Assembly: GCA_002737625.1 (NCBI GenBank)
Contig: NSIB01000015.1
Coordinates: forward strand, 1 to 32,719
From: Flavobacteriales bacterium
Lineage (GTDB): Bacteria > Bacteroidota > Bacteroidia > NS11-12g > UBA955
Direction: 5' to 3'
DNA length: 32,719 bases
Below are positions 1-27,693 of the stretch, piece by piece. The notes under the pieces are model-generated. The model was not told the origin of the DNA. It searched no databases and saw nothing but the letters and a program-made list of their open reading frames with translations. Position 1 is the first letter of the stretch, and each line of letters starts with the position of its first letter. Both the position numbers and the translations under genes were made by a program.

Positions 1-701
1 ATCTGACCACACATTTGCATCAACTCATTGAGTTGTTTTTCCAGGAGCCATTTTTCTCCGTCGGGGCCCCGGCCGTAGGCCGGGGGATCCAACAAAATCC
101 CATGGTACGTCTTCCCACGCCTCACCTCGCGCTGCACAAACTTAAACGCGTCCTCTACCACCCATCGAATCCCGTCCAATCCGCTCTCCTCCATATTTTC
201 ACGACTCCATGAAACCACCTGTTTTACACTGTCCACGTGTGTGACATCAGCACCCGCAGCACAAGCCGCCAAAGAAGCCCCTCCCGTATACGCAAACAAA
301 TTCAATACCCTTGGCTTCTCTTCCTTCGGAAACGTTTTTACCTTTTCGTATATCCAATCCCAATTCGCCGCCTGCTCCGGAAACAATCCCACGTGCTTAA
401 ACGACGTTAATCCCAATCGGAATTTCAACGACAATCCTCCCTGCTGATACTGAATCCACCAACGATCGGCCATGCCCGGCTTTAAATACCACTGGCCCTT
501 CTCCGCATCTGCCCCCGCCGCTTTTGCAAAGCTGGCGTGAGCCAACTTCTGCCATTCCTGCTCATCCAAACTCTTATCCCAAATGGCCTGGGGTTCGGGA
601 CGACGTAATATCCATTTGCCAAATCGCTCCAACTTCTCAAATCCACCCGCATCGATCAACTCGTAATCTTTCCAGGCGGTTGGACAAATCCGCTGACTCA
701 T
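1..701 (-). CDS. Class I SAM-dependent methyltransferase, RlmI/RlmK-like (COG1092), C-terminus off window
   Basis: This partial minus-strand gene is absent from the ORF track because its stop lies beyond base 1. The frame is open for 233 codons from ATG 699-701. Seen: a SAM-binding motif NLFAYTGGASLAA near residue 135, an acidic residue on the next strand (VTHVDS), and the substrate/catalytic motif DPPAYGRGPDGEKW near residue 208. Family knowledge: these motifs mark 23S rRNA m5C/m7G methyltransferases of the RlmI/RlmK group; the DPPAYGRGP form is the one I associate with Bacteroidota homologues. The ATG overlaps the parC stop by 4 nt (ATGA), so translation is probably coupled to parC. The DPPAYGRGP codons form a perfect GC-rich hairpin (67-85). 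The exact rRNA target cannot be told from sequence. Confidence 0.88.
   Translation of the reverse strand, partial: MSQRICPTAWKDYELIDAGGFEKLERFGKWILRRPEPQAIWDKSLDEQEWQKLAHASFAKAAGADAEKGQWYLKPGMADRWWIQYQQGGLSLKFRLGLTSFKHVGLFPEQAANWDWIYEKVKTFPKEEKPRVLNLFAYTGGASLAACAAGADVTHVDSVKQVVSWSRENMEESGLDGIRWVVEDAFKFVQREVRRGKTYHGILLDPPAYGRGPDGEKWLLEKQLNELMQMCGQ
67..85. repeat. GC-rich perfect inverted repeat within methyltransferase gene
   Basis: The arms CCCCGGCC and GGCCGGGG are perfectly complementary 8-mers around a 3-nt loop (GTA). The hairpin lies exactly in the codons of the conserved DPPAYGRGP motif, so it arises from codon choice and not from an extra peptide. It resembles the intragenic hairpins in moeB and moeA. 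Confidence 0.7.
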
Positions 702-24504: not shown

Positions 24505-25308
24505 CTACTTTCGATCAGAATTATTGACCAACTGAAATTTCACAATGCTGTGATCGATCGCATTGTACGTGAGCATTTGATTTGCCAAAAGTCCGTGTAA
24601 ACCCAAAATCCATTTCAAAACTTCCATCGCTTGGAACGACCCAATTATGCCTGCCAATGCACCCAAAACCCCAGCTTCGGCACAATTTTGAATTTCCCCC
24701 TCACCCGGTGGCTTGGAAAAAACATCTCTATAATTCAAAGAACGAAGCGCAGAGTGCTGCGAGAATTCTGGCGTTGTAATGTTGTGATTCTCAACCTCCG
24801 GAGTTGTCGTAACCGCATTAAACACCGCAACCTGACCTTCAAACTTTGCAATGGACCCATACACCCAAGGTTTGTTTGCCGAAGCACAAGCATCGTTGAT
24901 CAGATAACGAGCTGCAAAATTATCGGTACAATCCACTACGATATCCGCCAAAGCCAAGTAAGCAGTTGCGTTTTCCGCAGATAACATTTCCGTATAAACC
25001 TCCACAATTATTTGCGGATTTTGTTTTTGAATCCACTCCTTAGCCACCTCAACCTTAAACCGGCCAATATCGTTTTGAGTATACAGTATTTGTCGTTGCA
25101 AGTTACTCAAAGACACCCGATCTGCATCCACCAACAAGAAATTCCCCACCCCTGCAGCCGCTAGGTATTGAACCACCGGACAACCCAATCCGCCGAGGCC
25201 AACGATCGTTACACGGGCAGCGCGCAAAGCGCGCTGCCCGCCCATCCCAACCGCACGCAACGACAACTGACGTTGGTATCTATCCAAAAAATCGGGTTCC
25301 ATGTCCAT
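24505..25308 (-). CDS. moeB: MoeB/ThiF-family adenylyltransferase, zinc-less form
   Basis: 267 residues. It should activate the MoaD C-terminal glycine as an acyl-adenylate for sulfur transfer. Seen: nucleotide motif IVGLGGLGCPV (35-45), LVDADRVSLSNLQRQ (59-73), DCTDN (127-131), and the loop cysteine NCAEAGVLG (Cys209). Odd: both zinc-binding CxxC pairs of classical MoeB are missing; the first reads NYRD (192-195) and the C-terminus stops before the second. About 20 extra residues (NAVTTTPEVENHNITTPEFS) precede it. There is no rhodanese domain, so the sulfur donor is separate. A perfect 12-bp hairpin lies in its 5' region (25214-25240). Position next to moaD supports MoeB over ThiF. Confidence 0.9.
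   Translation of the reverse strand: MDMEPDFLDRYQRQLSLRAVGMGGQRALRAARVTIVGLGGLGCPVVQYLAAAGVGNFLLVDADRVSLSNLQRQILYTQNDIGRFKVEVAKEWIQKQNPQIIVEVYTEMLSAENATAYLALADIVVDCTDNFAARYLINDACASANKPWVYGSIAKFEGQVAVFNAVTTTPEVENHNITTPEFSQHSALRSLNYRDVFSKPPGEGEIQNCAEAGVLGALAGIIGSFQAMEVLKWILGLHGLLANQMLTYNAIDHSIVKFQLVNNSDRK
25214..25240. repeat. Perfect 12-bp inverted repeat within moeB
   Basis: Arms CGGGCAGCGCGC and GCGCGCTGCCCG flank a 3-nt loop AAA without mismatch. It lies in codons for GQRALRAAR, at a site where related proteins have the same number of residues, so no peptide appears inserted. Much more GC-rich than its surroundings. Confidence 0.8.
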
Positions 25309-26460: not shown

Positions 26461-27693
26461 CTAGCCAAATAAATGGACAACTACTGATGCTCCGGCAGCA
26501 ATTTCGCTACTCTCTTCAGGGATTTCGATGAGGCAATTGGCCAAAGAAAACGAGCTCAAACGATACGATTCTTGGGCGCCTAGCAATCGAACAATCCCAT
26601 CGGAATATATCCCTTTCAAGAAATGTGTGAGGCCGGGATTTTTCTTATATCCATCTAGGAACGATGCGTGTTTCACCGGAAGCGAAAGTGGGCAACCACT
26701 GTACACCTCAATGGCTGTGAGCACATATTGATAGAAGCAGGTTAACACCGATGCTGGGTTTCCCGGCAAACCAAAAACGACCGTCTGCTTCGCTGTAACC
26801 AAATCCGTTTTTGCATCAAGGACACAATCCCTCACCCCAAAAAACAGAGGTTTTCCCGGCTTCTGTTTGATTTTATGAAAAATGGGCTGGGTACCCGCGG
26901 CCTCGGCCGCGGGTACCACAAAGTCGTAGTCGCCAACACTCACCCCACCCGTCAATACAATCATATCACTATCCAACATCGCCAAACGAATTGATTCCGT
27001 TAAACCCGGCAAATCGTCCTTCGCATACACAATTTTGGGTTGTGAAAATCGCAAGTGCAAAAATGCCGCTTGAATTAATTGCGAATTGGATTCATAGACC
27101 TGACCAAAACCCAAAGGCAAACCCGGTTGCTGCAGTTCGTCACCCGTAACTATTAATGTTACCCTTGGCTCCCTAACCACCGCAACTTTCTCCAAGCCCA
27201 AGCTTGCCAAAAAGCCAACACCGGCGGCAGTGAGGACTGTCCCTTTTTTCATCGCCAACGCCCCCTTGGAAATTTCACTTCCCTGCAATCTCACATTCCT
27301 ACCACAAATTAAATCGGGATCTAACACCCCCAAGACGCCATCACGAACTGAAGCCTTTTCCTGCATCAAAACCGTATCAAACCCCTCTGGAACAGGGGCG
27401 CCTGTAAAAATACGTACCGCTTGGTATGGCGCGGGTCTCGGCCCTGCCTCGGCCGCGCCAGCGGCCACCTCCCCCACAATTTCCATCTTCCTATTCTCCT
27501 GATACCCCAGCCACGAAAAAGCATACCCATCCATCGCCGATTGCGCAAACCCCGGCATGTCAATCGGTGAAAAAATATCCTCCGCCAAACACCTTCCCAA
27601 TCCTTCCATCAGTTTCACCTCCACCGCATCCAAACGCAAAACGCTATCCGCAATCAACCCCTTGGCCTCCGCCACCGAAATCATCTTTTTCAT
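26461..27693 (-). CDS. moeA: Molybdopterin molybdenumtransferase MoeA
   Basis: 410 residues from ATG 27691-27693; the track start is a TTG three codons earlier. MoeA inserts molybdate into adenylated molybdopterin. Seen: N-terminal ISVAEAKGLI, CLAEDIFSPIDMPGFAQSAMDGYA (the PxFxxSAMDGYA motif), VRIFTGAPVPEGFDTVLMQE, GDEL, the MPT-binding LTGGVSVGDYDFV, KPGKPLFFG and GLPGNPASVLTCFYQY, then the C-terminal domain. Length is normal (about 400). Two GC-rich inverted repeats lie inside, at 26890-26917 and 27427-27460, sharing a 12-mer in the same reading frame. It is 22 nt after moaA. Confidence 0.96.
   Translation of the reverse strand: MKKMISVAEAKGLIADSVLRLDAVEVKLMEGLGRCLAEDIFSPIDMPGFAQSAMDGYAFSWLGYQENRKMEIVGEVAAGAAEAGPRPAPYQAVRIFTGAPVPEGFDTVLMQEKASVRDGVLGVLDPDLICGRNVRLQGSEISKGALAMKKGTVLTAAGVGFLASLGLEKVAVVREPRVTLIVTGDELQQPGLPLGFGQVYESNSQLIQAAFLHLRFSQPKIVYAKDDLPGLTESIRLAMLDSDMIVLTGGVSVGDYDFVVPAAEAAGTQPIFHKIKQKPGKPLFFGVRDCVLDAKTDLVTAKQTVVFGLPGNPASVLTCFYQYVLTAIEVYSGCPLSLPVKHASFLDGYKKNPGLTHFLKGIYSDGIVRLLGAQESYRLSSFSLANCLIEIPEESSEIAAGASVVVHLFG
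26890..26917. repeat. Perfect 13-bp inverted repeat within moeA
   Basis: Arms GGTACCCGCGGCC and GGCCGCGGGTACC are perfect complements with a 2-nt loop (TC). It encodes VPAAEAAGT directly after the conserved SVGDYDFV motif. The 12-mer GCCTCGGCCGCG (26900-26911) recurs at 27446-27457. Confidence 0.85.
27427..27460. repeat. Second GC-rich inverted repeat within moeA
   Basis: Arms TGGCGCGG (27427-27434) and CCGCGCCA (27453-27460) flank an 18-nt GC-rich loop that holds two CTCGGCC-containing stretches. The right part carries the 12-mer GCCTCGGCCGCG shared with the first moeA repeat, in the same frame (AAEA in both). Confidence 0.65.

Follow-up and report, generated by a model that had tools for sequence, protein, structure and literature searches.

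Long palindromes in protein-coding genes of a Bacteroidota clade are probably maintained by DNA-level arm-to-arm copying

Palindromes in moeA and elsewhere in the window

The molybdopterin molybdotransferase gene moeA analysed here contains two GC-rich inverted repeats that have an in-frame 12-mer in common, which raises the question of how palindromes arise and persist in DNA that must also encode a protein. The gene lies in a window (the whole stretch of DNA analysed) of 32,719 nucleotides, which is contig 7 of a 1.46-Mb draft genome (61 contigs, about 74% complete) whose closest named relatives are MAGs of uncultured Bacteroidota of the freshwater type (e.g. UBA2234 and Loc081215-6m_bin-1907). 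Beyond moeA the window holds two further GC-rich perfect inverted repeats in coding DNA, one of them in a moeB/thiF-type gene (Table 1).

Table 1. Coding palindromes, their host genes and the shared 12-mer in the 32,719-nt window.
Feature	Position	Strand	Details
GC-rich coding inverted repeat in ORF 3-701	67..85	-	CCCCGGCC-GTA-GGCCGGGG; 8-bp arms, GNA loop
moeB/thiF-type adenylyltransferase, 267 aa	24505..25308	-	PF00899; hosts the 25214-25240 palindrome
moeB/thiF coding palindrome	25214..25240	-	12-bp arms, 3-nt loop; residues 23-32 GGQRALRAAR
moeA, molybdopterin molybdotransferase, 413 aa	26461..27702	-	Pfam MoeA_N PF03453, MoCF_biosynth PF00994, MoeA_C PF03454; hosts palindromes 1 and 2
moeA palindrome 1, residues 262-271 VVPAAEAAGT	26890..26917	-	Arms 26890-26902 and 26905-26917, loop 26903-26904
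12-mer GCCTCGGCCGCG, copy 1	26900..26911	+	One of only two copies in the draft genome
moeA palindrome 2, residues 81-92	27427..27460	-	8-bp arms 27427-27434 and 27453-27460, 18-nt loop
12-mer GCCTCGGCCGCG, copy 2	27446..27457	+	One of only two copies in the draft genome

Palindrome 1 has the sequence GGTACCCGCGGCC-TC-GGCCGCGGGTACC, which confirms the perfect 13-bp arms and 2-nt loop ascribed to it in an earlier reading of the window made without database searches (the sequence-only reading). The second repeat described there is likewise present, is partial (an 8-bp stem with arms TGGCGCGG/CCGCGCCA around an 18-nt loop) and carries the identical 12-mer. At both sites the shared codons GCG GCC GAG GCx lie in one frame and encode AAEA. 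Copying between the sites or a coincidence of AAEA codons are both possible origins of the 12-mer.

Folding of palindrome 1 far exceeds that of dinucleotide shuffles (DNA z -6.2). Palindrome 2 has no such advantage over shuffled sequence (z -0.9), and is therefore unremarkable if taken alone; its pairing is nonetheless preserved in relatives of 55-60% identity, as GGGGGCGG/CCGCCCCC in L026 and GGGGCGG/CCGCCCC in L008 and L039, with 6 bp of pairing in L009 and no palindrome in L010, L011, L013 and L066. Four close relatives have an unchanged core GCGGCCGAGGCCGCG at site 1, with outer pairs that differ on both sides: GGTACC..GGTACC in the window (GTA..GGT ACC) is GGTCCC..GGGACC in L035 (GTC..GGG ACC), and L036 has 15-bp arms, GTTGTTCCC..GGGAACAAC (GTT GTT..GGA ACA AC), with a Q-to-T change. 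L033 and L034 display GTT..GGG, with one T-G mismatch. More distant relatives (62% identity) have no palindrome at this site. Palindrome 2 is the older of the two. The alignment is gap-free at site 1 in every relative, in agreement with the earlier claim that MoeA there keeps its expected length.

Genome-wide excess and distribution among relatives

Perfect inverted repeats with loops of up to 6 nt were counted in 1.09 Mb of the genome, with ORFs called mechanically, and compared with shuffles in which synonymous codons were permuted inside each gene. The strict count is of gene-interior repeats only, hairpins close to gene starts or ends being left out. With arms of at least 12 bp there are 15 gene-interior coding repeats in 1.0 Mb of coding DNA, against 0.40 expected from the shuffles, and with arms of at least 14 bp there are 8 against 0.00. 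Looser gene borders gave 20 repeats against 0.35 expected at arms of at least 12 bp, and the longest arm among the coding repeats is 24 bp. The genome-wide excess over a codon-shuffled control that the sequence-only reading had proposed looking for is thus present and strong at these lengths; at 8-bp arms an overall excess over the shuffles is not clear.

The palindromes are scattered through coding and intergenic DNA, and the genes that host coding hairpins are mixed in function, including MoeA, MoeB, a DnaE2-like polymerase, DprA, a glycosyltransferase, a SpoU methylase and a rhodanese. Beyond short GC-rich cores the different coding hairpins have almost no sequence in common. Among the intergenic hairpins, some have A/T tails and clearly belong to the terminator type. 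Intrinsic terminators do not account for the coding hairpins, which sit inside domains and lack T runs, gene-end hairpins having no part in the strict count. An assembly artefact was also rejected, as genomes assembled independently of one another contain these palindromes too, with arms that differ.

Two side observations concern placement. In a rhodanese-thioredoxin fusion (L094:6172-6208) a palindrome with 17-bp arms spans the CLSGGRS active-site loop. Long inverted repeats also tend to occur as neighbouring pairs, with 10 spacings below 200 bp against about 2 expected under uniform placing; examples are L119:6093-6246, L073:10264-10324, L101:1244-1316, L089:14956-15021 and L111:13093-13229.

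Repeats with arms of at least 12 bp were also found in two other genomes of the genus, G014 (3 against 0.10 expected in 0.30 Mb of coding DNA) and G013 (2 against 0.15 in 0.18 Mb), giving a density of 10-15 per Mb of coding DNA in these two and in the draft genome itself (G000). None was detected in G008 and G012, more distant members of the same genus, in G022 and G024 from the family, or in G032 and G034 from the order; 30 named loci of other Bacteroidota, which together with these genomes comprise 0.81 Mb of coding DNA, also contained none, and neither did 0.09 Mb of E. coli coding DNA (about 0.9 Mb in all controls). The feature therefore belongs to a subclade, and in the tree thirteen palindrome-clade genomes are grouped apart from G008 and G012. 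As distant relatives lack the palindromes of moeA and of other genes, simple conservation, the outcome that would have spoken against the sequence-only reading, was not seen.

Covariation and growth of the arms between species

Arm covariation was counted at six sites in relatives keeping at least 11 bp of pairing, each compared pairwise with one reference. All 29 two-sided changes were Watson-Crick, and there were 16 one-sided changes, these being pairwise counts that are not independent by descent, from relatives chosen for a kept arm. Control pairings slid by 1 to 4 columns gave 6-16 two-sided changes, of which 1-5 were Watson-Crick. An earlier slid-column test across all sequence pairs had produced only a modest peak because broken arms and flanking multi-base changes were included; the signal is sharp once restricted to kept arms. 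The 29 compensated changes altered the amino acid on both sides in 17 cases, on one side in 9 and on neither in 3. Per base, the arms diverge half as fast as their flanks (0.095 vs 0.207).

Arm length is graded between species. Around one shared centre the arms measure 8, 11, 13 and 16 bp in the glycosyltransferase gene (L112), 8, 16 and 18 bp at L101a, and 9, 13 and 15 bp in moeA. The moeB palindrome has arms of 12, 13, 14, 14, 15 and 17 bp in relatives from the genus, with outer pairs altered on both sides (GAT..ATC, TCC..GGA, CAC..GTG and CCC..GGG); it is missing in G008 and G012 (L207, L208) and broken or lost in L204 and L209. In DprA an 18-19-bp palindrome occurs in GGT/CAC, GGA/CTC and GAA/CTT forms, encoding G-H, G-L and E-L, respectively, and the pairing is always perfect. 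The palindrome at L111a is confined to the clade of G000 and G014 and, together with those of moeB and moeA site 1, illustrates gain and loss of coding palindromes between species. The arm lengths and the 29 Watson-Crick changes show arms becoming more complementary over time, the property that marks products of quasipalindrome template switching. Unrepaired single mismatches are present in the arms of L033, L034, L183 and L300. There is one apparent spacer inversion (n=1), GCCACGGC-GAA-GCCGTGGC in L158 against -TTC- in L157, from genomes that are sisters in the tree.

At the eight sites compared there was no gap in clade relatives, and no relative had an empty site differing by insertion, the proteins being rewritten without lengthening. 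The absence of indels at the sites, the outward extension of the arms in relatives and the compensated, mostly non-synonymous changes bear out the earlier view that the DNA has been rewritten rather than lengthened. As a separate observation, the G013 ortholog (L278) of L089:14999-15021 contains a 12-residue insertion beside an 11-bp-arm version of this hairpin, and this neighbouring repeat is the one place where a change in length was seen.

Loop preference

Among 30 long coding repeats (arms of at least 10 bp), 19 have a 3-nt loop, six other loop lengths sharing the remaining 11, and most of the 3-nt loops are C(GNA)G or the complement of this. Site 1 of moeA has a loop of another kind. In a comparison matched for closing pair and GC content, GNA/TNC loops made up 16 of 22 at arms of at least 8 bp against 25 of 170 at arms of 4-6 bp (p 4e-8). 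The GNA sequence was located 12 times on the mRNA strand and 14 times on its complement, a split that points to DNA and not to mRNA. GNA also lay on the G-rich strand by 19 to 7 (p 0.03), a bias too weak for use. Stability like that of d(GCGAAGC) is generally expected of the whole GNA loop class. For d(GCGAAGC) itself, a DNA mini-hairpin of extraordinary stability is known (Hirao et al. 1994, cited in PMC11292364).

Proposed arm-to-arm copying and its alternatives

The reading that best fits these sequence comparisons, to which we assign a probability of roughly 0.7, is that the coding palindromes are created and maintained through DNA-level arm-to-arm copying, by recurrent fold-back template switching, or quasipalindrome correction. 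A short quasipalindrome rich in GC, in most cases with a C(GNA)G triloop, would form a fold-back within one DNA strand while replication or repair is under way; the polymerase would then use one arm as template for the other before resuming its normal template. Such copying would leave the arms perfect and longer outward, with the spacer sometimes inverted and the length of the gene constant. Later mutations in one arm would be either copied into the other or erased, and selection on the protein would sort which copying products survive. The comparisons themselves show the excess, the pairing of the arms, their compensated changes and outward growth, the loop preference and the limits of the clade; replicative template switching as the copying agent, and a hairpin that is itself free of selection, are inferred. 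Quasipalindrome template switching is an established mutational route in E. coli (PMC7202029); in yeast genes template switching homogenises arms and inverts spacers (PMC8604942), and it has been shown to be able to maintain the stems of RNA genes (PMC8794818).

The hairpins could instead be mRNA structures under selection, for stability, translation pausing or attenuation, in which case the compensatory mutations would themselves have been selected. As RNA the stems fold strongly (z -6.2 and -5.2), the T-G mismatch class in moeA relatives would be a wobble pair in mRNA, and an excess of mRNA structure is known in bacterial genes (Katz and Burge, as cited in PMC4060949). We nevertheless judge this explanation unlikely. 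Of the compensated changes 26 of 29 are non-synonymous although synonymous routes were available, and only 3 are fully synonymous; the loops show no orientation bias towards the mRNA strand, and the host genes are functionally mixed. The hairpins, moreover, arise, lengthen and disappear at sites that differ from one species to another, and sister lineages have orthologs without them.

Homogenisation by hairpin cleavage and repair, for example by an SbcD/SbcC-like pair opening extruded hairpins, the gap being filled from the other arm, is improbable to a similar degree. An SbcD-like ORF (379-397 aa, about 50 bits; G014:C54:111985-113951) has counterparts in G001-G005, G007, G009-G011 and G013, which with G014 amounts to 11 of the 13 palindrome-clade genomes, and it mostly adjoins an ORF that carries an AAA_23 domain of the SbcC/Rad50 type and, where uncut, reaches up to about 840 aa, the exceptions being G013, where the genes are on contig fragments, and G005, where adjacency was not seen. 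The SbcD-like ORF was not found in the palindrome-free G008 and G012 or in nearly all other relatives, a distribution that favours the cleavage explanation. The co-occurrence, however, lies along one branch, and is confounded with every other clade-specific gene; in addition, the SbcD-like matches fall below the family cut-off, and the draft G000 and G006 yielded none.

The two remaining explanations are far weaker. A mobile or selfish palindromic element inserted in genes, comparable to the Rickettsia palindromic elements, would suit the number of palindromes, their spread over coding and intergenic DNA and the 12-mer common to the two moeA sites, but is already contradicted and retains hardly any probability: the hairpins form no sequence family beyond their short GC-rich cores, the 12-mer occurs only twice in the 1.46-Mb draft and has no dispersed family, no insertion-type empty site was seen, site length is constant, and the arms improve instead of decaying. 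The sequence-only reading had suggested a palindromic mobile or template-switch element; its template-switch half is well supported by the compensated changes and the absence of indels, and its mobile-element half is not supported. Chance arising from GC-rich alanine and glycine codons is equally remote, since, even if alanine-rich runs (AAEAA) favour GCGGCC-type sequence and the site 2 fold equals its shuffles, synonymous shuffles of the same genes yield 0.4 long repeats against 15 and the compensated changes are left unexplained; chance is contradicted for the class, and could partly account for moeA site 2 alone.

Candidate drivers

Template switching is general in bacteria, so arm-to-arm copying by this route does not alone explain the richness of this clade. 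It is conceivable, if doubtful, that a repair or replication activity of the clade actively drives arm-to-arm conversion at GNA-loop mini-hairpins, which would make the palindromes self-maintaining, protein-rewriting chromosomal units. Candidates for such a driver are the SbcD/SbcC-like pair and a DnaE2-like second DnaE-type polymerase (L101:633-3662, 1009 aa), which all 13 genomes of the palindrome clade possess and which was not found in G008 or G012. The DnaE2-like gene is itself host to two adjacent long coding palindromes. As the thirteen genomes stand apart from G008 and G012 on the tree they provide one evolutionary contrast, which many genes would fit.

Loss of exonuclease VII was rejected as a cause. 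The large subunit (XseA, PF02601) was not found in 12 of the 15 genus members (G000-G014) or in most of the order, and is present in several family members; most palindrome-free genomes lack it too, so its absence does not discriminate the trait.

Relation to known systems and significance

One close likeness is to the mitochondrial genes of Nematomorpha, which contain perfect coding palindromes for which arm conversion by template switching has been proposed (Mikhailov et al. 2019, PMC6649704). In both systems perfect inverted repeats occur in conserved coding genes, are gained and lost between species and leave protein length unchanged. The Nematomorpha palindromes, however, are mitochondrial with arms of up to 284 bp, whereas those described here are on a bacterial chromosome, have arms of 8-24 bp, and differ in having tiny loops, preferably C(GNA)G, and arm lengths that are graded across species at a single site. 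Quasipalindrome mutation in E. coli (PMC7202029) and yeast (PMC8604942) likewise perfects arms and brings non-synonymous changes into coding DNA; it also inverts spacers, of which one apparent case was seen here, and alters several bases at once. Those events are known as rare mutations or at strain level, while here standing palindromes persist and co-evolve among congeneric species, at a density in coding DNA of 10-15 per Mb.

An excess of small coding inverted repeats is known in prokaryotes, some genera being strongly enriched (PMC4060949 and work cited therein), and the over-representation of perfect coding repeats reported earlier was likewise attributed to template switching. That excess was small and concerned 6-9-bp repeats, in contrast to the present one, which is not clear at 8 bp and is 40-fold or greater at arms of at least 12 bp. 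Rickettsia palindromic elements also place in-frame palindromes within genes; they are an inserted repeat family that lengthens proteins and loses arm identity with time, whereas here there is no insertion at the compared sites, no family, and arm identity is restored. REP elements are extragenic, exist as many near-identical copies and are associated with a RAYT transposase, in contrast to the coding location and lack of a family seen here. In the open-access library searched, no account was found of bacteria whose long, perfect coding palindromes co-evolve from species to species, and a bacterial clade in which several species retain such palindromes would appear to represent a new form of a known process.

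Two-sided compensated changes are usually taken as proof of selected RNA structure. The changes described here sit in protein genes and occur mostly at the protein's expense, an argument for such a signature being within reach of mutation alone. Clustered amino-acid replacements in this clade could otherwise pass for positive selection. The clade could serve as a bacterial system for measuring how often template switching occurs and what it requires of strand, loop and enzymes, and through the contrast with the close relatives G008 and G012, what licenses such palindromes becomes a testable question.
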